The notes under the pieces are model-generated. The model was not told where the DNA came from. It worked only from the letters and a program-made list of their open reading frames with translations, and searched no databases. A stretch of 64,000 nucleotides of DNA from Elusimicrobiaceae bacterium (GTDB lineage: Bacteria > Elusimicrobiota > Elusimicrobia > Elusimicrobiales > Elusimicrobiaceae): assembly GCA_016283355.1 (NCBI GenBank), contig JAEEMS010000013.1, positions 1-64,000 of the forward strand. Reading direction: 5' to 3'. The position numbers and the translations under genes were made by a program. Of the stretch, positions 3,103 to 22,042 are shown one piece after another (positions within the stretch are counted from its first letter, which is position 1; every line of letters begins with the position of its first letter).

Positions 3103-3259
3103 GCGGTATGTAACGCAACAAACGACGTATACGCAACCGGTGCAAACACAGCGAACGGTGACTACTACTACGACAACGACGAACGCGACGAATGCGGGAG
3201 ATCCGACGTTACGAGGTTTTAGGAAGCCGAAGAAGATCCAATACATCAAGAACAATTAA
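3103..3259 (+). pseudogene. Remnant copy of the autotransporter gene 3' end
   Basis: The 157 bp are colinear with 1440-1596 and identical at 154 positions. The segment starts exactly at the third tail repeat and runs through the stop codon, ending KNN where the parent has KDN. It is fused to the chromate transporter remnant in a different frame, so it is not a working fusion. A terminator like the one after the parent gene follows. Confidence 0.9.
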
Positions 3260-3280
3260 GATATATTGAGAGCAAACAAA

Positions 3281-3309
3281 AAATCCCCCGGGTGACCCCG
3301 GGGGATTTT
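3281..3309. terminator. Bidirectional hairpin terminator
   Basis: The hairpin AAATCCCCCGGG-tga-CCCGGGGGATTTT has A and T runs on both sides. It can end transcription from the remnant on the plus strand and from the subtilase gene on the minus strand. Confidence 0.8.
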
Positions 3310-3324
3310 AATTGTTCCTTGTAA

Positions 3325-4539
3325 CTATTGTGCTTCTTCTTGTCGTTTTCTTTTTTGTAAATTCTCTATTAACTTGGCAGGTTGCAATAGGTTGTAGGCC
3401 TCAAACTCTACGCCTTGAAATTCGCATGTAGGATTTAAGGCGGTTTTCTTCCACGCTTCCGTGAAAATTTCTTTGGTTAAATTGGGGTACACTTGCACGG
3501 CCAATGCGTACATCCCCACTATATACGGCACCGCCCATGAAAAACCGCCATGGGCATAGTGTACATAATGGTTTTCCCCGGTGGGAGAAGCTGTTACGCG
3601 AAAGCATGTGGGAACGGTCAAATAATCGCGCTGTTGTTTGTAGTAATCTGAATCTTTTCCCCACCAATAGGTCGGATGGCAGTAAGGGAGTTTATCAGGA
3701 TGCGATAAAGAATGATTTCGACTAAGAGATTCAACATCCCAATTCCCCGCCATAAACACAGCAACGCCGCTTTCTTCCAGTTTCTTTTTTGCATCTAAGA
3801 ACTGGCTGATCCCCGGAGTGTTTTTGAAATAGGTGCCTCTGTCGCTAAATCCCTGCGAGATTCCCACCGCGCGCACTCTTTGCTCGGGCGGAAGTTGTTT
3901 GTTCAACTCGTAAATTTCATCTAAGGCAGTCGCAAAAGGGGTGGCATCCCGACTAATCCCTGCCGCGTAGAAAAACAGATTGGCTTTAGGTGCCACGCCT
4001 ACTTTTTTACCAACAGCGATAGAGGCCAATGCTGCACCGTGCATAGCGGCGTTCGATTTTTTCATATTTGGCATTACTTTATACCATACAAGCGCGTGTT
4101 TATACTCTTTGTGGTTGGTTTGTATCGGTTGATCCAAAAGTGCTATGGACACACCGCGCCCGTCAATGCCTTTTTTGTGAAGAGCATAGAGGCCTAACCC
4201 AGGGTTTTTGCCGTTTTTCAGAATTTTCTTTGGGTTAAATCCTTTGGGCAATTTATTTTTTGGTGGAAATTTAGTAACTTCGTCAAAGCGTAAGATGTCT
4301 GCCAGTTCTTCAACAGTATAGTTTGAGAAATCCCAATCGGATAAGTCATAAGAGCGTACATCCAATTCGTCGGGTACCAAAACTTTCTCTTTGGGCTGTC
4401 CGTTAGGAAAATCCTCTTTCATAAAGGAAGAATAATCAGCTGCTTTTGCACTGCTAGCAATATCGGGAAGTTTAATTTGTGCGGCCACAAATCCGGTTGT
4501 GGCAAAACAAAATGCGATTGTTAAAATAATTTTTTTCAT
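3325..4539 (-). CDS. Secreted subtilisin-like serine protease (S8-type), 404 aa
   Basis: A signal peptide (KKIILTIAFCFATTGFVAAQ) precedes a region of about 100 residues that may act as a propeptide. The catalytic elements then appear in S8 order: Asp136 in GVSIALLDQPI, His167 in MHGAALASIAVG followed by the typical GVAPKANLFFYA strand, Asn266 in VAVFMAGN, and Ser334 in GGFSWAVPYIVG, which replaces the usual GTSMAAPHVAG. All four residues are present, so activity is plausible although the sequence is divergent. It is the cargo of the second of two units with the same flanks and sits divergently, 50 bp from the chromate transporter gene. Likely substrates are extracellular or periplasmic proteins. 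The fold call is firm; specificity is unknown. Confidence 0.8.
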   Translation of the reverse strand: MKKIILTIAFCFATTGFVAAQIKLPDIASSAKAADYSSFMKEDFPNGQPKEKVLVPDELDVRSYDLSDWDFSNYTVEELADILRFDEVTKFPPKNKLPKGFNPKKILKNGKNPGLGLYALHKKGIDGRGVSIALLDQPIQTNHKEYKHALVWYKVMPNMKKSNAAMHGAALASIAVGKKVGVAPKANLFFYAAGISRDATPFATALDEIYELNKQLPPEQRVRAVGISQGFSDRGTYFKNTPGISQFLDAKKKLEESGVAVFMAGNWDVESLSRNHSLSHPDKLPYCHPTYWWGKDSDYYKQQRDYLTVPTCFRVTASPTGENHYVHYAHGGFSWAVPYIVGMYALAVQVYPNLTKEIFTEAWKKTALNPTCEFQGVEFEAYNLLQPAKLIENLQKRKRQEEAQ

Positions 4540-5126: not shown

Positions 5127-5650
5127 TTTTTCTGAAATTATTTTTTACTTTCTTTAAAATAGGCCTTTTTAACTTTGGCGGTGGATACGCCATGATTTCG
5201 TTTATCCAAAATGAAATTGTACATAAACACGCCTATCTTTCCACCGCTCAGTTTACCGACATTGTAGCCCTAAGCCAAGTGACACCCGGCCCGGTGGGAA
5301 TCAATATGGCCACCTATACGGGTTACAGTATAACGCACAGTGTGTGGGGGGCGGTGGTAGCTACGGTGGCGGTGTGTTTGCCGTCGTTTATTTTGATGAT
5401 TTTTATTAGCAGATTTTTTCTGCAATATCGCCGCAGTAAGACCGTAGAAGACGTTTTAAAAGGTCTTCGTCCGGCGGTAGTAGGTTTGATTGCAGCAGCT
5501 GCGCTCGTGCTTTGTAATGTGCAAAACATCATCGACTATAAAAGCGTTCTGCTTCTCATTGGGGCGTTTTTGGCAGTATGGAAATTCAAAGCCGGGCCGA
5601 TTTTTGTATTAGTGATTAGTGGCGCGTTGGGCTTTGTGCTTTACACCTAA
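5123..5650 (+). CDS. chrA: Chromate transporter family protein, second half-size subunit
   Basis: A 175-residue homologue of its upstream neighbour, with the same architecture: FFKIGLFNFGGGYAMISFIQNEI, then VALSQVTPGPVGINMATYTGY, then four or so hydrophobic segments. The start at 5123 overlaps the preceding stop (ATGA), so the two are translationally coupled and probably form a heteromeric, antiparallel transporter. A longer frame starting at 5006 is merely open sequence inside the first gene. No clear terminator follows. Confidence 0.85.
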   Translation: MIFLKLFFTFFKIGLFNFGGGYAMISFIQNEIVHKHAYLSTAQFTDIVALSQVTPGPVGINMATYTGYSITHSVWGAVVATVAVCLPSFILMIFISRFFLQYRRSKTVEDVLKGLRPAVVGLIAAAALVLCNVQNIIDYKSVLLLIGAFLAVWKFKAGPIFVLVISGALGFVLYT

Positions 5651-5726
5651 AGTTAAATAAAGCTAATTTATTGTTTAGCAACAAATTATTTATTTTTAGA
5701 CGTAAAATATAATTTTTTAAAAATAC

Positions 5727-5755
5727 TTGTTAGTTTGAACTAACTTTTGTATAAT
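5727..5755 (+). promoter_or_regulatory. Promoter with a palindrome over the -35 box
   Basis: TTGTTA (5727-5732) is separated by 17 nt from TATAAT (5750-5755). The dyad GTTAGTT-tg-AACTAAC (5729-5744) overlaps the -35 box and fills most of the spacer, as an operator would. The downstream gene starts at 5785 after the ribosome site AGAGAGG. Confidence 0.6.
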
Positions 5756-5784
5756 AAAAGTATCAACAAAAGAGAGGATATTCT

Positions 5785-6489
5785 ATGAACAAGTATTTTT
5801 TAAAAGTTGTGATAGCAGGTATCTTATTTGTCGGTAATGTCGGTTTTGCCCAAACCACAGCCGATTTGCAACGCAAAGTCACCCGCGTTGCCCAAACCCA
5901 ACAGTCCGAAGTAAAAATCACCTTGAATTGGTTCCGCGAAGTGGAAATGCGAGACGTAATGTTGCGTCCTTCCCGTGGGTTTGTGCATAAATCTAAAATA
6001 GTATTAGACAAAAAAACAAAGCAAACCCAATGCAAAGGGGTGCTTGTACAAACGGGGCAAGTAGTTATGCCGAAAGTTTGTATGAAACAAAATTGGCAAC
6101 TCAACCAATTTACACTTATTTTTGCTAACGGCAAAAAAGGAATAGGCACTTCAAAATCTTTCCGCATGAAAGGGGATGTTGTCTACATTGAAGTTTCCCC
6201 CGAACTTACCAAAGGTTTAAAGGGCCTTCCAATGGAGGCTACGCCCAAAGGCCAATCGTTGGAAGAACATTTTGGGCATGGTGTTTTGGACACTATTGCC
6301 TCTTTCTTCCATTCCAAAGGGGTAGTATGTTCCAAACGGTACTATCGCCCCGGCAAAGTACATTATGGTGATTCCACCCTTCAAGTGGGGGATGGTATTT
6401 TGTACCAAGGGAAGTTGGTAGCGCTTGTGAAAAAAGATGTTAAACGGATTCATGAAGTATCGGAAAAACCGCTAGCTATTCTTCGTTGA
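5785..6489 (+). CDS. Secreted protein, probably degenerate trypsin-like fold (234 aa)
   Basis: A signal peptide (KYFLKVVIAGILFVGNVGFAQ) is followed by features resembling a chymotrypsin-fold protease: CKGVLVQTGQVVMPKVC occupies the place of the usual C-GVLI-TAAHC block, and near the C-terminus VHYGDSTLQVGDGILYQGKLVALV resembles the GDSGGPL region with its following strands. The His position in the first block is Val, so the triad looks incomplete even though Ser is present. The product may be inactive or may bind rather than cut. It is a single gene with its own promoter and terminator (6541-6571). The trypsin-fold assignment is my inference from motif order, not a firm family match. Confidence 0.5.
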   Translation: MNKYFLKVVIAGILFVGNVGFAQTTADLQRKVTRVAQTQQSEVKITLNWFREVEMRDVMLRPSRGFVHKSKIVLDKKTKQTQCKGVLVQTGQVVMPKVCMKQNWQLNQFTLIFANGKKGIGTSKSFRMKGDVVYIEVSPELTKGLKGLPMEATPKGQSLEEHFGHGVLDTIASFFHSKGVVCSKRYYRPGKVHYGDSTLQVGDGILYQGKLVALVKKDVKRIHEVSEKPLAILR

Positions 6490-6540
6490 AATTTGGTTGT
6501 AAACTTCAGGCCCACAGCCAAGGGTTTGAGGTCTCCTATA

Positions 6541-6571
6541 AAAATGCCCCGGGTGAAGCCCGGGGTATTTT
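6541..6571. terminator. Intrinsic terminator between convergent genes
   Basis: The hairpin AAAATGCCCCGGG-tgaag-CCCGGGGTATTTT has flanking A and T runs. It serves the secreted protein gene on the plus strand and may also serve the YgjP-like gene ending at 6655. The rest of 6490-6654 shows nothing else. Confidence 0.75.
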
Positions 6572-6654
6572 GTTACATAGCTGAAATTTGCAAAAGAGTT
6601 GCACTGCATTCCCCGGTGAAATCGTCCGGGAATTATTATAAGTACAAAAATAAA

Positions 6655-7341
6655 TTAAGCGTTGGGGTTGGGGTTCGTTTGGTTGTCGGAAGGGGTTTCT
6701 TCTTCGCGGTAGCTCAAAGACACTTCGGCAAAGATAGCATCTTTGTTTTCATTGAGCCAACGGCGGTGCAGCTTGTAATCCGGGCAGTATTGGGCCACCA
6801 TGGTCCAATATTCTTCCTGATGATTCATGTAGGTCAAGTGGCACAATTCATGAATCATCAAATAATCTTGTACGGCCGGAGGCATTTTGATAATACGGTA
6901 GGAAAAATTTAAATTTTTCTTACTGGAACAGCTGCCCCACACGGTTTGTTGGTCTTTCACTACTATATTATTAAATTCCACGCCCATTTTTTCAGCCCAT
7001 CCTTTTGTTTTGGCTGGGATAATTTCTTTGGCGTTGTCTTTAAGCCATCCGGTTACTAATGCCGAAGGATCACCTTGCTTACTTTGTAGGTAAATGTGAA
7101 AAACGGAGCCGTCAAACGCCACGCCTTCTTCCTGATCGGGAGTGATGTACATACGAGCTTCAAACAAATCCCCGTTGTAAAGCACTTTGTTGCCGCTAAT
7201 GGATAGCGAAGGCGTTTCTTTTTGCCCCAGTTTGATTTCGGTAGGACGTTTCTCTTCTTTCCCAAACACTTCGGGCAAATCTTTTTTAAGGCGTTCTAAA
7301 AATAATTTTACATCGCTGATGACGGTTTGTGTATCGGACAT
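6655..7341 (-). CDS. YgjP-type (DUF45) metallopeptidase-like protein
   Basis: A 228-residue protein whose C-terminal half carries the DUF45/YgjP signature: QTVWGSCSSKKNLNFSYRIIKMPPAVQDYLMIHELCHLTYMNHQEEYW. HELCH is the zinc-binding HExxH motif, with a further His in the following NHxxEYW. The N-terminal half is a beta-rich region typical of the family. Characterised relatives have been linked to zinc peptidase-like and nucleotide-hydrolysing roles; the substrate here is unknown. The gene is divergent from gcvT and shares with it a symmetric promoter (7348-7379). The predicted transcription start is at or within 2 nt of the start codon, and no ribosome site is visible, so it is likely leaderless. 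Confidence 0.8.
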   Translation of the reverse strand: MSDTQTVISDVKLFLERLKKDLPEVFGKEEKRPTEIKLGQKETPSLSISGNKVLYNGDLFEARMYITPDQEEGVAFDGSVFHIYLQSKQGDPSALVTGWLKDNAKEIIPAKTKGWAEKMGVEFNNIVVKDQQTVWGSCSSKKNLNFSYRIIKMPPAVQDYLMIHELCHLTYMNHQEEYWTMVAQYCPDYKLHRRWLNENKDAIFAEVSLSYREEETPSDNQTNPNPNA

Positions 7342-16015: not shown

Positions 16016-17191
16016 ATGATGACCGAAATTAAACTCAAAGCCAAAGAAGAACGCCGTTTGCAAGCCGGCCATTGGTGGGTATTTTCCAACGAGATTGACG
16101 GTTTAGATACCTCTATTGAGCCGGGCACGTTGGTACGTGTTGTCAATCACGAAGGCAAACAAGTGGGGTATGGTTGTTTTAACCCGCACAGTTTAATTGC
16201 GGTCCGTTTAATTACCAAAGGCGAGGGGGACTTGCCGGAAGATTTTGTGTTTGAAAATTTAGACAATGCTTATGCGTATCGCAAGGAAATCGGGGTGCGC
16301 AAATACGGCCGTATGTGCTACGGCGAGGCCGATCATATGCCCGGCCTTATCGTGGACCGTTACGGGGACGTATTGGTAGTGGATGTTTTAACGGCTGGCA
16401 TGGAGCAGTTAAAACCGCAAATTACCAAAGCACTCAAAAAAATCTTCAAACCCAAAGGCATTTATTATAAAAATGACAGTTCCTTCCGCGCGTTGGAGGG
16501 GCTCACCAACACGCCTGAAATTATCGGCGAAGTGCCCGAAGAAGTAGAAATTGAAGAGAACGGCGTAAAATACAGTGTGCCGCTTCGCGGTGGGCAGAAA
16601 ACCGGTTTTTATTTTGACCAACGCGAAAACCGCGAATTTTTAAAACCGTATTTCAAAGATAAACTGGTGCTTGATTTGTATTCCTATATTGGTTCCTTTG
16701 GCATTACGGCCGCATTGGCCGGCGCAAACCAAGTGTGGGGGTGTGATTCCTCTGCTGCGGCTGTAGAATATGCCAAGAAAAATGCGGAACTTAACGGTGT
16801 TTCGGATATTGCTATTTTCCATCGTGACGATGCCGAGCGTTTGCTTTCCGCCATGAAAAAAGGCGAACTGCCGGACCAACCCGATATCGTTTTGTTAGAC
16901 CCGCCCGCGTTTGTCAAAAGCCGCAAGGCACTCCCGCAGGCGGTTGGCTTGTATGTAAAACTTGTCAAAATGGCGCTTGAGGGTTTAAAACCCGGTGGGT
17001 ATTTGGCATTCTCCACCTGCAGCCACCATGTTTCGCGTGAACTGTTTGTGGACATTATCCGCCAAGGTGTCAGCAAATCCGGTACGAATGCGGTGCTGGT
17101 GGAATTGCGCGGCCAAGCCAAAGACCACCCGGTGCTGATCGGTATGCCGGAAACGGAATATCTGCACTTTGCATTGGTGCAAAAGCGATAA
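16016..17191 (+). CDS. rlmI: Class I rRNA large subunit methyltransferase (RlmI-like)
   Basis: A 391-residue protein with an N-terminal PUA domain (ERRLQAGHWWVFSNEIDGLD) and a C-terminal Rossmann methyltransferase. Visible motifs are the SAM site DLYSYIGSFGITAALAGANQVWGCDSS, motif IV LLDPPAFVKSRKAL, and STCSHHVS with the catalytic Cys of m5C enzymes. RlmI methylates C1962 of 23S rRNA in E. coli; this target is assumed by homology. It is last in the long plus-strand run and is followed by a strong terminator. Two consecutive ATG codons (16016, 16019) are possible starts. Confidence 0.88.
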   Translation: MMTEIKLKAKEERRLQAGHWWVFSNEIDGLDTSIEPGTLVRVVNHEGKQVGYGCFNPHSLIAVRLITKGEGDLPEDFVFENLDNAYAYRKEIGVRKYGRMCYGEADHMPGLIVDRYGDVLVVDVLTAGMEQLKPQITKALKKIFKPKGIYYKNDSSFRALEGLTNTPEIIGEVPEEVEIEENGVKYSVPLRGGQKTGFYFDQRENREFLKPYFKDKLVLDLYSYIGSFGITAALAGANQVWGCDSSAAAVEYAKKNAELNGVSDIAIFHRDDAERLLSAMKKGELPDQPDIVLLDPPAFVKSRKALPQAVGLYVKLVKMALEGLKPGGYLAFSTCSHHVSRELFVDIIRQGVSKSGTNAVLVELRGQAKDHPVLIGMPETEYLHFALVQKR

Positions 17192-17205
17192 AACTTTTAG
17201 TATAT

Positions 17206-17240
17206 AAAAACCGCCTTTACAATTTAGTAAAGGCGGTTTT
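17206..17240. terminator. Bidirectional terminator between rlmI and the paralog array
   Basis: The hairpin AAAACCGCCTTTAC-aattta-GTAAAGGCGGTTTT is long and perfect and flanked by A and T runs. It closes the plus-strand gcv run and the minus-strand five-gene array. Confidence 0.9.
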
Positions 17241-17258
17241 CTTTTTGAAGAGACTTAC

Positions 17259-18056
17259 TCATTCAACATCAACAGATATCCTAAAATTAATTGGAGCAGA
17301 AGGAATATATTTTACTCGCTTAGGGGATTCATATGTGTAAGCTCCCCCGGGTTTTGTTTGATGAGCAGAAAAATATAGCACATCACTAGAAATCGACCCC
17401 GTTGTAAACTTTACAAAGAGGCCACGCGTCCAGTAAGCGTTACCTTGAGCGTCCCATTTGCTGATATATTGGGTACGAGTTACACGTACTATGCCAAACT
17501 CGTTGCTCGTGTGGCTATTCCTTCGATCAGCAATGGCATCCATACATCCCGGCCATGCTTTACATATCTTTTCATTAGGGAAAAGAATACTGAGATTTTC
17601 CACTAAAGCATGAGTAGAAGGTTCCTGCGGCAACGGGTGCCCTGGGAATTTATTTCGCATTTCGGTGGGCGGAAGATATTTGACATTTCCACCCTTTTTA
17701 TCTGAAATCCGCAAAAATTCATAAGCTTTTATTTGACCGTTTTCGCGGGTTTGTGCGTAAAAACGGTGCCACCACACGGCTTCTTTTCCATCCCAGTCGG
17801 GAATCCAATGTGCGACTTCAGTATCTATCAACTGAAAAGAAACAGTATTGGCAGATTTTAGTCCTACCCATTCCTGGCAGCCGGGCCATTCTTCGCACAT
17901 TTGTTTCACGCGTTCATCAGCATAGAGGTTGCGTTGCTTAACAGCCGCTTTCTTTGCATTGGTGGCCAATTCTTTTGCAGAGGGTTCTTTAGCAACAGAT
18001 GCAACGCTAATTAAAACCAATGCAAAAGTCGTTGTTAGTGTTATTAGTTTTTTCAT
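17259..18056 (-). CDS. Secreted paralog-family protein, array member 5
   Basis: Last of five tandem paralogs on the minus strand; 265 residues from the ATG at 18056, after AATGGAGTGATT. The signal peptide is KKLITLTTTFALVLISVASVA. The family core is visible: RVKQMCEEWPGCQEWV, then QLIDTEVAHWIPDWDGKEAVWWHRFYAQT, a FPGHPLPQEPSTHA motif and a second Cys-Trp block, ICKAWPGCMDAIA. The C-terminus differs most from the other members. I do not recognise the family. Paired Cys within CEEWPGC suggest a disulfide in an exported protein. Confidence 0.75.
   Translation of the reverse strand: MKKLITLTTTFALVLISVASVAKEPSAKELATNAKKAAVKQRNLYADERVKQMCEEWPGCQEWVGLKSANTVSFQLIDTEVAHWIPDWDGKEAVWWHRFYAQTRENGQIKAYEFLRISDKKGGNVKYLPPTEMRNKFPGHPLPQEPSTHALVENLSILFPNEKICKAWPGCMDAIADRRNSHTSNEFGIVRVTRTQYISKWDAQGNAYWTRGLFVKFTTGSISSDVLYFSAHQTKPGGAYTYESPKRVKYIPSAPINFRISVDVE
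17864..17912. repeat. 49-bp perfect repeat shared by array members 5 and 4 (copy 1)
   Basis: Identical to 18674-18722. It encodes the Cys-Glu-Glu-Trp-Pro-Gly-Cys motif region, while flanking coding sequence differs. Confidence 0.85.
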
Positions 18057-18068
18057 AATCACTCCATT

Positions 18069-18863
18069 TTAAAAAATAAAGTCCGGGTGGTAAGGACATT
18101 GGTTAATTTTGTGCGGATTGTGATGAATATAAGCCCCACCCACTTTTTTTTGCTCTGTATAGAATGCCAAAGAAGCGCTTCCGCCGGAATAATAGTAAAG
18201 TTGTACATACAAACTGCGCGCCCAAAGAGCGTTGCCGTTTTCATCATAGTTATGAATATACTGTTCCTCTACTGCTTTACTGATACTGGCCATTTTTTCT
18301 TTAAGCAGTTCTTTACACTTATCCCATTTTAGACATTTCGCTAAACTATCGTTGGATGTAGTAGACACGTGGTAACGTGCGTGCTCGGAAGGGTGTTCTT
18401 TTATCGGATGTTCCGGAAATTTTTTAATTTCATCAGGAATGAGATAAATATACCCGCGGCTTTCCTTGATGTATTTGAGAGTGTCGGTATGAGAATTATC
18501 CCTGTCTATTTTAATTCGTTCAAAGCGGTAGGCCTTTGCTTTGCTACCTTCCACTGTTTGCAGATAAAAGATATGTTTCCAAAGGGTCTCATTTTTCTCA
18601 AAATGAGTTATCCTGTGTTCTATTTCCGCATCAATCACGTGGAAGGAGCCGGGTTGCTGGGCGGCGCGGTTGGCTACCCATTCCTGGCAGCCGGGCCATT
18701 CTTCGCACATTTGTTTCACGCGTGGTTTGCTGTAAATAGAGGCATATTTGCTTGTTTCCCGTTTTACGGCCGCTGCCAATTCTTTAGGGGTGCTCTTGGC
18801 GTATACATAAGAAACGCTTGCCAAAATGAGCAAGGTACTGATAATCACAAATAATTTCTTCAT
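18069..18863 (-). CDS. Secreted paralog-family protein, array member 4
   Basis: 264 residues from the ATG at 18863, preceded by GAGGAGCATAAA; an upstream ATG at 18956 would lie inside the previous gene and put 31 polar residues before the signal peptide KKLFVIISTLLILASVSYVYA. It shares VKQMCEEWPGCQEWVANR, DAEIEHRI, KKFPEHPIKEHPSEHARY and a second block, LAKCLKWDKCKELL. A 49-bp stretch coding the Cys-Trp motif is identical to one in member 5. Function unknown. Confidence 0.75.
   Translation of the reverse strand: MKKLFVIISTLLILASVSYVYAKSTPKELAAAVKRETSKYASIYSKPRVKQMCEEWPGCQEWVANRAAQQPGSFHVIDAEIEHRITHFEKNETLWKHIFYLQTVEGSKAKAYRFERIKIDRDNSHTDTLKYIKESRGYIYLIPDEIKKFPEHPIKEHPSEHARYHVSTTSNDSLAKCLKWDKCKELLKEKMASISKAVEEQYIHNYDENGNALWARSLYVQLYYYSGGSASLAFYTEQKKVGGAYIHHNPHKINQCPYHPDFIF
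18674..18722. repeat. 49-bp perfect repeat shared by array members 5 and 4 (copy 2)
   Basis: Identical to 17864-17912, within array member 4. Confidence 0.85.
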
Positions 18864-18879
18864 TTTATGCTCCTCATCA

Positions 18880-19668
18880 TTAGTGACGTATAAAGAAGGC
18901 AAAATCAGGTTGTCTGTCTGCTTCCTGCAAAACAGAGTTTGCCTTTTTTGCATCAATATATTTAAACGGTTCCCCTAATTTATTTTGGCGTGCTATTAAT
19001 GCCCCTTTAGGGAAGGAAAGGACATTTAGAAACCAAGGGGCCCAATCCAAGCGGCGCACCCAAAGCGGGTTGTCTTTTTCATCCCAAAGAACGCGTTGTT
19101 GTTCTATGGCGCTCATTACCTGTAACCAGGAATTATCCATCATGGAGCCGGCCCATCTTTTGCGTAGTTTGTTGTCTTTCGGGAGGTCAACGGGGCCAAT
19201 TTCCCAGGTTTCTATTACACACTTAGCGTGTTCGGAAGGCATATCGGTAAACGGGTGTCCGGGGAATTTCTTAATTTCCTTAAGATCAAAACCGAATTCC
19301 TTATCCTTTGCGATAACATAAGCTCGTGTTTGTAAATCTTCCATTGTTTTTATGTACAAGTTGTAATGCCAAATGGATGCTACGCTCCATGGGGATTTCT
19401 TCTCTGGGTTAGTAACATAATATTCCACTTCCGCATCAATAATGTGGAAAGAAGGGTTTTTCTTGTGCTGTTCTTTGGCCCATTTTTCACAACCGGGCCA
19501 TTCTCGGCACATTGTTTTTACGCGGTCGAACATATAGTATTTTTCCTGTTCCAACACTTTACGCGCGATATTGGACTTCAACTTGGAAGTTGTGGCCTGT
19601 GCATATGTGGGTACCAAGCTGATTAAAATGAGTGTTGCACTGAGTAATAAGCAATATAATTTTTTCAT
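18880..19668 (-). CDS. Secreted paralog-family protein, array member 3
   Basis: 262 residues with signal peptide KKLYCLLLSATLILISLVPTYAQ. Family landmarks: RVKTMCREWPGCEKWAKEQ, HIIDAEVEYYVTNPE, KKFPGHPFTDMPSEHAK, DEKDNPLWVRRLDWAPW, and the C-terminal block NKLGEPFKYIDAKKANSVL. It is most like members 1 and 2. The first 92 coding bases are identical at 91 positions to those of member 2, whereas the mature parts diverge. The next gene starts 16 nt after its stop. Function unknown. Confidence 0.75.
   Translation of the reverse strand: MKKLYCLLLSATLILISLVPTYAQATTSKLKSNIARKVLEQEKYYMFDRVKTMCREWPGCEKWAKEQHKKNPSFHIIDAEVEYYVTNPEKKSPWSVASIWHYNLYIKTMEDLQTRAYVIAKDKEFGFDLKEIKKFPGHPFTDMPSEHAKCVIETWEIGPVDLPKDNKLRKRWAGSMMDNSWLQVMSAIEQQRVLWDEKDNPLWVRRLDWAPWFLNVLSFPKGALIARQNKLGEPFKYIDAKKANSVLQEADRQPDFAFFIRH
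19577..19668. repeat. 92-bp near-perfect repeat covering the signal peptide of member 3
   Basis: Matches 20366-20457 at 91 of 92 positions. It spans the start codon, signal peptide and the first mature residues. Confidence 0.85.
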
Positions 19669-19698
19669 AAAATATCCTTTAATACCTTTATCCTATCT

Positions 19699-20457
19699 TT
19701 AGAGAGAAAAATTAGGAGTATCCGAGGAAGATGTTCTATGCAAAATTGAATTTGAATTCTTCGCATCAATATACTTAAACGGATCTCCCAATTTTTGTTG
19801 ACGGGCGATTAATGCCCCTACACGCGTTTTATCGTCAACGGCCCCGGCAAGAGTAAAATCAAGGCGACGTTCCCATCTCGGATTATCTCCATTCTTGTCC
19901 CAAATGACGCGTTGTTGCTCGCTGGCCCATCGAATATGCGGCCAAAAAGGTCCTATGGCTTGGGGCCATTTTTTATATATTTCACTACCTACGTATTTGG
20001 AGTGTTGTGCAGGCATATTGGTAAACGGATGCCCCGGAAATTTTTTGATTTTTTCAGGTAAGGGACGAAAATACTGTTTAGTACTTACAGGAACCGCATA
20101 AATTGTTTGGAGTCTTGCGCGAAACAAGTAAACTTGCGGCCGCCAATCCTCAAACACTTCTATATAAAGGTTATAGGCCCAAACAAGTTCCACGGGGTCT
20201 ATTACGTAGTATTCCACTTCCGCGTCTCTGATTTTAAAGGACGGGTTTTCTTTGTAGCGTGCCATGGCCCATTCCTTGCATTTGGGCCATTCCTCGCATA
20301 TTATTTTTACGCGGTCGGACATGTAAAAATCTTCACGTTCTAATAATTTGTGCACAATGTTGGATTTCAACTTGGAAGTTGTGGCCTGTGCATATGTGGG
20401 TGCCAAGCTGATTAAAATGAGTGTTGCACTGAGTAATAAGCAATATAATTTTTTCAT
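19699..20457 (-). CDS. Secreted paralog-family protein, array member 2
   Basis: 252 residues from the ATG at 20457, which overlaps the stop of member 1 in ATGA and so is translationally coupled. The signal peptide KKLYCLLLSATLILISLAPTYAQ is almost that of member 3. Landmarks are RVKIICEEWPKCKEWAMAR, IRDAEVEYYVIDP, KKFPGHPFTNMPAQHSK, WDKNGDNPRWERRLDF and KLGDPFKYIDAKNSNSIL. An upstream ATG at 20499 is rejected because it lies inside the neighbouring gene. Function unknown. Confidence 0.75.
   Translation of the reverse strand: MKKLYCLLLSATLILISLAPTYAQATTSKLKSNIVHKLLEREDFYMSDRVKIICEEWPKCKEWAMARYKENPSFKIRDAEVEYYVIDPVELVWAYNLYIEVFEDWRPQVYLFRARLQTIYAVPVSTKQYFRPLPEKIKKFPGHPFTNMPAQHSKYVGSEIYKKWPQAIGPFWPHIRWASEQQRVIWDKNGDNPRWERRLDFTLAGAVDDKTRVGALIARQQKLGDPFKYIDAKNSNSILHRTSSSDTPNFSL
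20366..20457. repeat. 92-bp near-perfect repeat covering the signal peptide of member 2
   Basis: Matches 19577-19668 with one difference (Val/Ala in the signal peptide). Confidence 0.85.
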
Positions 20458-21350
20458 TTGTTTGATACCTCTTTTGGGCGATATACTACCGTAATACAAA
20501 AATGTGGAATATAGTGTGCCCTAATTAAAATAGAATTCGCTTTTTTCGCATCAATGTATTTAAACGGTTCTCCTAATTTATTTTGGCGCGCAATCACCGC
20601 ATATCTTTTCATATCTTCGACAGGATATATGCCGGAGAATATAATGTAATCAAAGCGGCGCTCCCAGCAGGGATTGCCGTTTTTGTCCCAAATAACACGC
20701 TGTTGTTCCACGCCTCTTCCCATTTGCCACCAATGTTCATCAGATATTTCCGGCCATCTCTGGCGCATTTTTTTGCTGTGGTAGGGGGCTCCATAACGCT
20801 CTTCCAATTCGTACCTGGCATGGTTGGAGGGCATATCAGTAAATGGGTGGCCGGGGAACTTTGCGATTTTTTGAGGAGTGTCCGGGAAAGAATAAGGATT
20901 TTCGGATTTGTGATTAATTTCCGTTCTAAATACGTAAAATTGTTCTTGTAAATTTTCCAACACTTTTACGTAAAAATTGTGTTGCCAAAAAGGCCATCCA
21001 GAATTCTGTTCAACATAATATTCCACTTCCGCATCAATAATGGTAAATGATGGATTTTCCTTTCGGCGTGTCATGGCCCATTCCTTGCATTTGGGCCATT
21101 CTCGGCACATTGTTTTTACGCGGTCAAACAAATAATACTTTTCACGTTCTAATATTCTGTTACGTTCTGATATCCTGCGCGCTACGTTGCTTTGGAGAGC
21201 AGATTGTGGCTGGTCATCTATAAGACATTTGCGGGGGTGAGCTTGTCTAGTGTTAGCTTGGGAAGTTTGGGCTTGTACATATACCGGGGCAAGCAGAAAA
21301 CTCGCAGACATCAACATAAGTATTCGTTTCAAGGTAAACAATTTCTTCAT
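20454..21350 (-). CDS. Secreted paralog-family protein, array member 1
   Basis: First gene of the array, 298 residues from the ATG at 21350 (ribosome site GGAGCGAACA). Signal peptide KKLFTLKRILMLMSASFLLAPVYVQA. A member-specific insert of about 45 residues (HPRKCLIDDQPQSALQSNVARRISERNRILERE) precedes the shared core: RVKTMCREWPKCKEWAM, IIDAEVEYYVEQNSGWPFWQHNFYVKV, AKFPGHPFTDMPSNHARYE and NKLGEPFKYIDAKKANSIL. A partial copy of the composite upstream element lies at 21407-21451, so all five genes probably share this promoter. Confidence 0.75.
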   Translation of the reverse strand: MKKLFTLKRILMLMSASFLLAPVYVQAQTSQANTRQAHPRKCLIDDQPQSALQSNVARRISERNRILEREKYYLFDRVKTMCREWPKCKEWAMTRRKENPSFTIIDAEVEYYVEQNSGWPFWQHNFYVKVLENLQEQFYVFRTEINHKSENPYSFPDTPQKIAKFPGHPFTDMPSNHARYELEERYGAPYHSKKMRQRWPEISDEHWWQMGRGVEQQRVIWDKNGNPCWERRFDYIIFSGIYPVEDMKRYAVIARQNKLGEPFKYIDAKKANSILIRAHYIPHFCITVVYRPKEVSNK

Positions 21351-21406
21351 TGTTCGCTCCTGTAAGGATACATTTTCCAAAATTCTATAATTTCCCCCAG
21401 ATTATC

Positions 21407-21451
21407 GCAAGGGCCAAAAGACCCAAGTGTTGCGTGGGCCTTTTGACGCCT
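21407..21451 (-). promoter_or_regulatory. Composite upstream element, partial copy D, before the paralog array
   Basis: Read toward the array, the near-palindrome TGGGTCTTTTGGCCC is followed by CTTGC, as in copies A-C. Upstream, an inverted partner GGCGTCAAAAGGCCCA replaces the ATCTAGG half. A TATAGA box follows at 21384-21389, and the first gene starts 57 nt below the element. Confidence 0.45.
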
Positions 21452-21499
21452 GTTTTGTATTGCGCGTCCTAACAAAATTTGGTATTATATTACTGTAAT

Positions 21500-21571
21500 G
21501 CCGAGGTAGCTCAGTGGTAGAGCACTGGTCTGAAAAACCAGGTGTCGACAGTTCGATCCTGTCCCTCGGCA
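21500..21571 (+). tRNA. tRNA-Phe (GAA)
   Basis: A complete cloverleaf: acceptor GCCGAGG/CCTCGGC with discriminator A, D stem GCTC/GAGC, anticodon stem CTGGT/ACCAG with loop CTGAAAA (anticodon GAA), T stem GACAG/CTGTC with loop TTCGATC. The 3' CCA is not encoded. Confidence 0.97.
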
Positions 21572-21580
21572 TTTCGCTTT

Positions 21581-22042
21581 TTATATAAAAGAGTGTTTTT
21601 CAAATTCCCGCACAACGTTTTCCAAGTATTGCTGGTCTTCTGCGTCAAAGCGGTTTTCAATGGGGGAATCTATATCCAGTACACCCCACACTTGCTTGTT
21701 TTTGAAAATCGGTATAACAATTTCACTTTTAGAAGCACTATCGCACGCAATGTGGCCGGGGAATTTATGTACATCGGCCACTCGTTGGGTTTGGCCGGTT
21801 TGCGCACATGTGCCACATACGCCACGCCCCATTTTTATCCGCACACAAGCCGGTTTACCTTGAAATGGTCCCAATACCAGTTCGTTCCCGCGTAAGATGT
21901 AAAACCCGGCCCAATTCAAATCGGGCAGTCCGTTAAAAAGGGCCGAGGATACATTGGCCATATTGGCTATTGCATCCGTTTCCATTTGCAAAAGAGCGGT
22001 AATTTGAGGAATTAAACTTTTATAAATTTGATTTTTTGTCAT
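21581..22042 (-). CDS. msrC: Free methionine-(R)-sulfoxide reductase (GAF domain)
   Basis: A 153-residue single GAF domain of the fRMsr type. It reduces free methionine-R-sulfoxide using Cys chemistry. The conserved Cys residues are all present: GKPACVRIKMGRGVCGTCAQTG and HKFPGHIACDSASKSEIVIPI. N-terminal DAIANMANVSSALFNGLPDLNWAGFYI and C-terminal WGVLDIDSPIENRFDAED are typical. The enzyme protects against oxidative damage in the cytoplasm. On its own strand, TACAAT ends 6 nt before the ATG and there is no ribosome site, so the mRNA is probably leaderless. The gene is convergent with tRNA-Phe. Confidence 0.9.
   Translation of the reverse strand: MTKNQIYKSLIPQITALLQMETDAIANMANVSSALFNGLPDLNWAGFYILRGNELVLGPFQGKPACVRIKMGRGVCGTCAQTGQTQRVADVHKFPGHIACDSASKSEIVIPIFKNKQVWGVLDIDSPIENRFDAEDQQYLENVVREFEKHSFI

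Follow-up and report, generated by a model that had tools for sequence, protein, structure and literature searches.

The window, a stretch of 64,000 nucleotides (nt) from contig JAEEMS010000013.1 of an Elusimicrobiaceae bacterium (GenBank assembly GCA_016283355.1), carries five co-oriented paralogous genes on the minus strand at 17259-21350, and their products of 252-298 amino acids (aa) represent a real, lineage-restricted family of exported domains that has no model in the libraries searched. After a signal sequence, each protein consists of two copies of a domain of about 110 aa, a duplication absent from an earlier note on this DNA. The family is patchy and fast-changing, and a variable binding partner outside the cell is therefore probable; we give an even chance to the reading that the array is a lineage-specific Elusimicrobiaceae family of exported binding proteins, secreted or in the envelope, with one conserved and one variable copy of the domain and with gene numbers that shift through duplication and loss. 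Expansion of exported proteins within one lineage is an already known kind of thing, and the interpretation offered in the earlier note, interaction with a varied partner such as host or prey molecules, is plausible but unproven.

Array genes and their duplicated domain

Counted from the chosen ATG starts, the exported two-domain paralogs are p5 (20454..21350, 298 aa, the array's first gene), p4 (19699..20457, 252 aa), p3 (18880..19668, 262 aa, of the KLGEPFKYIDAK type), p2 (18069..18863, 264 aa) and p1 (17259..18056, 265 aa, with an alternative GTG start 6 nt upstream, at 18062). p5 and p4 overlap by 4 nt in an ATGA, and gaps of 30 nt, 16 nt and 12 nt separate p4 from p3, p3 from p2 and p2 from p1, respectively. 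Open reading frames (ORFs), lengths and tight spacing, re-read from the sequence, bear out the five tandem exported paralogs that the earlier note had described. Judged by eye, all five appear to begin with a Sec-type signal sequence ending in an A-x-A-like site. The motifs C(E/R)EWPxCxxW (core C-x5-C-x2-W) and KFPxHP...H(A/S) occur in 5/5 proteins and KLGxPFKYIDAK in 3/5, as had been claimed; the claimed D-A-E-(I/V)-E-(H/Y) segment is present in 4/5 and fails in p1, which has DTEVAH. The proteins align along their whole length, with 29-39% identity to p1, and are therefore homologous rather than sharing motifs by chance.

The internal duplication was assessed with an alignment of 15 two-domain proteins (A2; five from the window, seven from locus L031, two from L033 and one from L032) and a domain-1 alignment of 19 rows, five of them single-domain forms (A3). 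Profile comparison of the two halves of A2 (hhalign) gave a probability of 98.7 and a score of 90.4. Of 200 column shuffles none scored above 18.9, and a reversed half scored 16.7. A hidden Markov model (HMM) of A3 matches domain 2, the best three matches being in G009 (E 2.7e-9), G003 (3.4e-9) and p1 (7.5e-9). In p1, on the minus strand, the conserved domain 1 (17604..17966) holds CEEWPGC..W, three long strands, FPGHP and PSTHA, and the variable domain 2 (17262..17603) holds CKAWPGC and QYISKWDAQGNAYW.

The two copies are conserved to different degrees. Mean identity is 45% for domain 1 and 29% for domain 2, with domain 1 the better matched in 102 of 105 pairs, and domain 2 varies most in its helix and second hairpin. 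Across 23 two-domain proteins, C54, C60, W63, F74, D78, E80, W95, E105, Y112, F137, P138, H140 and P141 are invariant in domain 1 and Q196, W209 and Q233 in domain 2. Exported enzymes or metal-binding proteins, with the invariant D, E, H, Q and C residues (C54, C60, D78, E80, E105, H140, Q196 and Q233, each in 23/23) as the active or metal site, are a very unlikely alternative: only C, C, W and F are invariant across the 19 rows of A3, single-domain forms included, and no enzyme family is matched. The domain-1 Cys pair is found in all 23 two-domain proteins and the domain-2 pair in eight, with one Cys in two and none in 13, and the spacing in single-domain members varies (C-x5-C, C-x7-C, C-x11-C); this pattern favours a disulfide bond. 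Counting against one, VKOR and DsbB have no match in the window genome and Thioredoxin_4 matches there only below cut-off.

Within the libraries searched (Pfam, NCBIfam, PHROGs, PADLOC and PDB sequences), the earlier statement that no known family has this pattern holds. Scans of the five window proteins and the alignment members against Pfam and NCBIfam gave no match reaching a curated cut-off, and without cut-offs only weak matches in one or two members each (best E 6.9e-4). Sina_TRAF (6.9e-4, 20.5 bits, below its cut-off of 24.8), spiralin (E 4e-3) and PAN_4 (PF14295; E 2.6e-3, best 18.2 bits vs a Pfam gathering cut-off of 27) were judged to be chance. The likeness to PAN_4 is a short C-x5-C match in several members (profile 23-39); unlike PAN_4, the family matches over 13-17 residues only, and in the domain-1 model the second Cys begins a helix. 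The same scans gave no N_methyl match, and a type IV pilin reading was rejected on this and on the lack of a class III leader. For the five window proteins, the best PHROGs match has E 0.037 and PADLOC gave none at E <= 1. Profile searches of PDB sequences returned nothing with A2 and two release-factor chains (E 0.2) with A3, and no relative was found in phages and plasmids (p2 as the sole query) or in IMG/VR (A2). Among the matches listed, no literature title concerns the array family, which is no proof of its being unpublished.

Distribution, turnover and selection

A full-length model matches in 8/61 relatives, and in 0 of the 24 from another family. The domain HMM matches in 13/90 Elusimicrobiaceae genomes, in 2/6 genera (11/66 and 2/18). 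In a sample of the phylum 12/294 genomes match, and the only two outside Elusimicrobiaceae (G069 and G075) both have in-frame stops and were dropped before counts were made. Also dropped were a ferritin-like protein of G297 (E 6.7e-4, put down to chance in a search of very few ORFs) and, in the later reading of the slot genomes described below, matches between E 0.01 and 1. The resulting 37 proteins are spread at 0 to 10 per genome: ten in G003, six each in the window genome (G000) and G297, two each in G009, G017, G036, G148 and G231, and one each in G023, G026, G031, G097 and G141. Absences are soft because many genomes are incomplete. Copy numbers of 0 to 10 and presence in 13/90 family genomes speak against a housekeeping enzyme of constant copy number, the outcome that the earlier note had named as refuting its proposal.

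Two-domain proteins make up 23 of the 37. Six single-domain genes adjoin ruvA (G017, G026, G036, G148, G231 and G297), the frame of the one in G036 being masked by a longer overlapping frame in one reading; no member was seen on the ruvA side in G000, G003, G009, G115 or G260, the G009 contig ending short there. Five exported proteins (three in G297, one each in G148 and G023) join a stretch that looks coiled-coil-like by eye to a single C-C-W domain (L079:4542-5105; L078:1362-1829 and 3117-3671; L088:4369-4920; L086:2407-3042), and three further single-domain variants occur in G017, G036 and G231.

The window genome (1.40 Mb, 29 contigs) belongs to the same genus as G003, G009 and G031, and its sixth member lies on contig C29 at 6656-7309. 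At this locus (L070, 98-7339) the member is surrounded by several same-strand, exported-looking proteins, and a region of G003 (L072) contains three of the same neighbours together with two family members.

In a tree of the 23 two-domain proteins, p1 falls with genes 6 and 7 of L031, p2 with gene 3 of L031 and gene 2 of L033 (L031:2777-3598, L033:6004-6816), and p3-p5 with gene 1 of each of these loci, several supports being low (down to 0.04). Three types are thus common to several genomes, and a cluster of p3-p5 particular to the window is weakly supported (0.748, 0.652); from these groupings, the array is made up of shared types plus local copies. At the same place, G000 has five array genes and G003 has seven, G003 being the nearest relative when judged by the flanking methyltransferase (98%, with 75-96% for other neighbours). 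The first 30 codons of p3 and p4 are 99% identical in DNA vs 62% for the rest, the next-best 30-codon window reaching 76%, and 0 of 20000 permutations matched this. The shared 5' end points to gene conversion or a recent exchange of the signal-peptide end.

Whole-gene ratios of nonsynonymous to synonymous substitution (dN/dS, Nei-Gojobori) are 0.13-0.28, and 0.26-0.28 for the four pairs with dS < 1. Taken separately in four pairs, domain 1 has 0.14-0.23 and domain 2 has 0.29-0.38. For neighbouring genes compared between G000 and G003, the values are 0.02-0.03 (methyltransferase and phosphoribosyltransferase) and, at high dS, 0.06 (AsmA-like) and 0.13 (GAF). No positive selection on whole genes was found, no dN/dS exceeding 0.40, and none of the 23 two-domain genes read has an internal stop.

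Predicted fold and possible partners

AlphaFold (AF2) models were built from shallow alignments (15 and 24 rows), with a predicted local distance difference test score (pLDDT) of 82.5 and a predicted template modelling score (pTM) of 0.78 for p1, and 83.9 and 0.75 for domain 1 alone. In the models, short helices joined by the C-x5-C turn pack against a sheet of three long antiparallel strands, accompanied by two strands that are very short; the N-terminal strand of cystatins is lacking. The best VIA match of the p1 model is a multicystatin (Z 5.0, 82 residues, root-mean-square deviation 4.3) and that of domain 1 an adhiron (Z 5.3, 78 residues, 4.7). By title, 28 of the 50 VIA rows shown for domain 1 are cystatin-fold, and they represent few distinct proteins: affimers or adhirons (seven rows), monellin or MNEI/sweet-protein forms (14 monellin rows), cystatin, latexin, SQAPI and a designed cystatin fold. 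Affimers and monellin have the cystatin fold. The absence of a family from the VIA lists was not taken as exclusion. VirB8-like, COMMD and NTF2-like rows in Foldseek are as weak as the cystatin rows there, and a Foldseek search of BFVD with the domain-1 model was empty at E <= 1e-3. With low certainty, the domain topology may be said to resemble a cystatin/NTF2-like grip.

Membership of the cystatins was rejected on the QxVxG motif. It is not in the family consensus, and a relaxed search found it in 2/15 proteins (p2 and a3), in different hairpins. An excerpt of PMC2784779 describes QxVxG as conserved in bacterial cystatins and stefins; since it is not conserved here, the array family is not filed as a cystatin. 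A helix plus antiparallel sheet, predicted for the array family, and export are common to it and the cystatin/stefin superfamily (I25, bacterial cystatins included); the same excerpt reports small duplicated families and a triplicated-domain form in bacteria (PMC2784779). The array family departs from cystatins in that QxVxG is not conserved, the model shows a C-x5-C helix turn and lacks the N-terminal strand, sequence searches gave no match to the superfamily and Z is at most 5.3. Cystatin HMMs gave no match at E <= 1 or <= 0.1, depending on the scan, HMMER filters dropping most matches above about 0.1. Latexin and fetuin-B, each with two cystatin-like domains, resemble the array proteins in having two tandem helix-plus-sheet copies (rows of the structure searches), although no sequence similarity was found and the structural scores are weak. 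Both are eukaryotic proteins with different targets.

That the proteins are secreted protease inhibitors, in which tandem cystatin-like domains act on cysteine or other proteases of gut ciliates, hosts or competitors and protease variety drives diversification, is unlikely. The idea is attractive because the named carriers come, by name, from herbivore guts and because a rumen ciliate highly expresses C01A cysteine peptidases: the three named carrier metagenome-assembled genomes are Tb.RUG.216 and RUG486 (rumen, by name) and Horse_feces197, and the ciliate is Entodinium caudatum, according to a part of PMC6925433. The cystatin-fold VIA rows and the two-domain latexin and fetuin-B among the whole-model structure matches also favour it; the rare and misplaced QxVxG, the missing N-terminal strand, the lack of a cystatin HMM match and the low Z argue against it, and three carrier names are no statistics. 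An example of the proposed role is Cip1, a chagasin-like inhibitor secreted by Pseudomonas syringae, which, according to a part of PMC5014320, came from a screen of non-annotated secreted proteins and, like the array proteins, is a small exported bacterial protein. Unlike the array family, Cip1 has the chagasin motifs NPTTG, GxGG and RPW, belongs to another family and is described there as one gene (PMC5014320). We give little credence to the stronger proposal that the array encodes a diversified set of secreted inhibitors or decoys, built of tandem cystatin-like domains of a new type that lacks the cystatin motif; each protein would pair a constant copy with a variable one, and the set would let Elusimicrobiaceae of herbivore guts resist ciliate or host proteases.

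Under the preferred reading of exported binding proteins, domain 1 would be a scaffold or anchor and the faster-evolving domain 2 would carry specificity, and the gene set would be reshaped through tandem duplication, loss and 5' gene conversion. Such turnover would follow from a bound partner that differs between hosts or communities; candidate partners are a host, protozoan, microbial or dietary protein, or a surface polymer. Patchiness, the faster C-terminal copy and the shared 5' end are indirect support for the varied partner of the earlier note; the whole-gene dN/dS of 0.13-0.28 indicates purifying selection, with no sign of positive selection overall. Several further points weigh against a binding role. 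Purifying selection dominates, judging from the substitution ratios, and faster divergence of one domain may be mere relaxation. The variable stretches are also the least certain part of the alignment, the invariant polar residues D78, E80, E105, H140, Q196 and Q233 might just as well belong to a catalytic or metal site, and signal peptides were judged by eye rather than by a predictor. Foldseek found nothing in PDB at E <= 1e-3 with the p1 and domain-1 models, its top rows were not cystatins (VirB8-like OrfG at 1.2e-3 for p1, a COMMD chain at 3.8e-2 for domain 1), and weak fold matches may reflect only a common arrangement.

The tRNA-Phe slot and its neighbours

The array lies between two widespread genes. 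On the left is a PUA-domain S-adenosylmethionine methyltransferase (16016..17191, plus strand; 64/66 genus genomes), which we take to be RlmI-like, and on the right a GAF-domain protein (21581..22042, minus strand; 52/66 at E <= 1e-20), presumably similar to free-methionine sulfoxide reductase. An inverted repeat with a 14-bp stem (17207..17240; listed on the plus strand by the scan) separates the array from the methyltransferase gene, which is convergent with it; the repeat is a likely terminator in a region with nine terminator-like sites vs 4.6 +/- 2.2 expected. The single transcript proposed in the earlier note is consistent with this repeat and the gene spacing, the transcript itself remaining a prediction. 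The only promoter-like site on the array strand between p5 and the tRNA is a weak sigma-70-like one (21382..21410, minus strand, 9/12 matches), which is not distinguishable from chance because the region has 16 such sites vs 10.7 +/- 3.1 expected.

A tRNA-Phe(GAA) gene (21499..21572, plus strand) is divergent from the array, whose start is 148 nt away on the tRNA 5' side, and the same arrangement is found in L031 and L033. Family members lie beside tRNA-Phe in four genomes. The constant neighbour is the tRNA rather than the methyltransferase, because in G009 the methyltransferase is elsewhere and two members still begin right beside tRNA-Phe (L033:4985-5058, 5217-6819). An integrative island at tRNA-Phe was considered and is not supported. 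No second copy of the tRNA 3' end was found in the window (23-base pattern with up to three mismatches, two of them taken up by the true end), and with this and its 5'-side position the array is therefore unlike a classical island.

The interval between methyltransferase and tRNA-Phe (17191-21499 in the window; loci L090-L109 and L112-L114) is a variable slot whose contents differ by genome. It was read in 25 genomes (G000, G003, 20 and three others) selected largely because a single contig covers both flanks, and so not random; G135 and G115 were left out, that side not being shown. The array family occupies the slot in 3/25 (G000, G003 and G297), a pilin-like gene in 5/25 (by eye; one tested with Pfam), and an exported, helical-looking protein of about 230 aa in 7/25, with a look-alike in 3/25 (similarity by eye). 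Of three further genomes, one has what by eye is a DNA-methyltransferase-like gene next to a partner ORF, another has a lipoprotein resembling S8 peptidases (Pfam Peptidase_S8), and the third has an exported protein of 327 aa. The protein of about 230 aa forms a second exported orphan family with a QRQELL-like N-terminal stretch (L095:1438-2127, L096:1381-2064, L103:889-1581 and others); one of the seven and one look-alike were scanned, with no Pfam match at E <= 0.001.

These contents bear on two other explanations of the array. Relaxed, near-neutral exported genes, their turnover reflecting a recombination-prone slot rather than a changing partner, would fit a slot that lacks any 100-aa ORF in 4/25 genomes and holds unrelated cargo in 18/25, as well as the lack of any dN/dS excess above 1. 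We consider this explanation highly improbable, as the two-domain genes are free of internal stops, core positions are conserved and members occur at several other loci. Envelope adhesins or matrix proteins that dock on the outer surface through domain 1 and expose domain 2 to the outside are a rather improbable explanation. In its favour, the proteins are exported, most proteins encoded near the sixth member and near the G003 members on contig C17 have signal-like starts (by eye), and pilin-like genes use the same slot; against it, inspection of the mature parts by eye showed no transmembrane helix, lipobox or cell-wall motif, and a class III pilin leader is missing.

What emerges is an exported domain family from a poorly cultured gut lineage. 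The domain comes in at least three arrangements (double, single, and coiled-coil-like plus single), and the protein set and domain boundaries are now usable for binding screens. In the tRNA-Phe slot, gene content differs between related genomes and consists mostly of exported genes. Should a protozoan or host protein prove to be the partner, the family would give a handle on bacterial persistence in herbivore guts.

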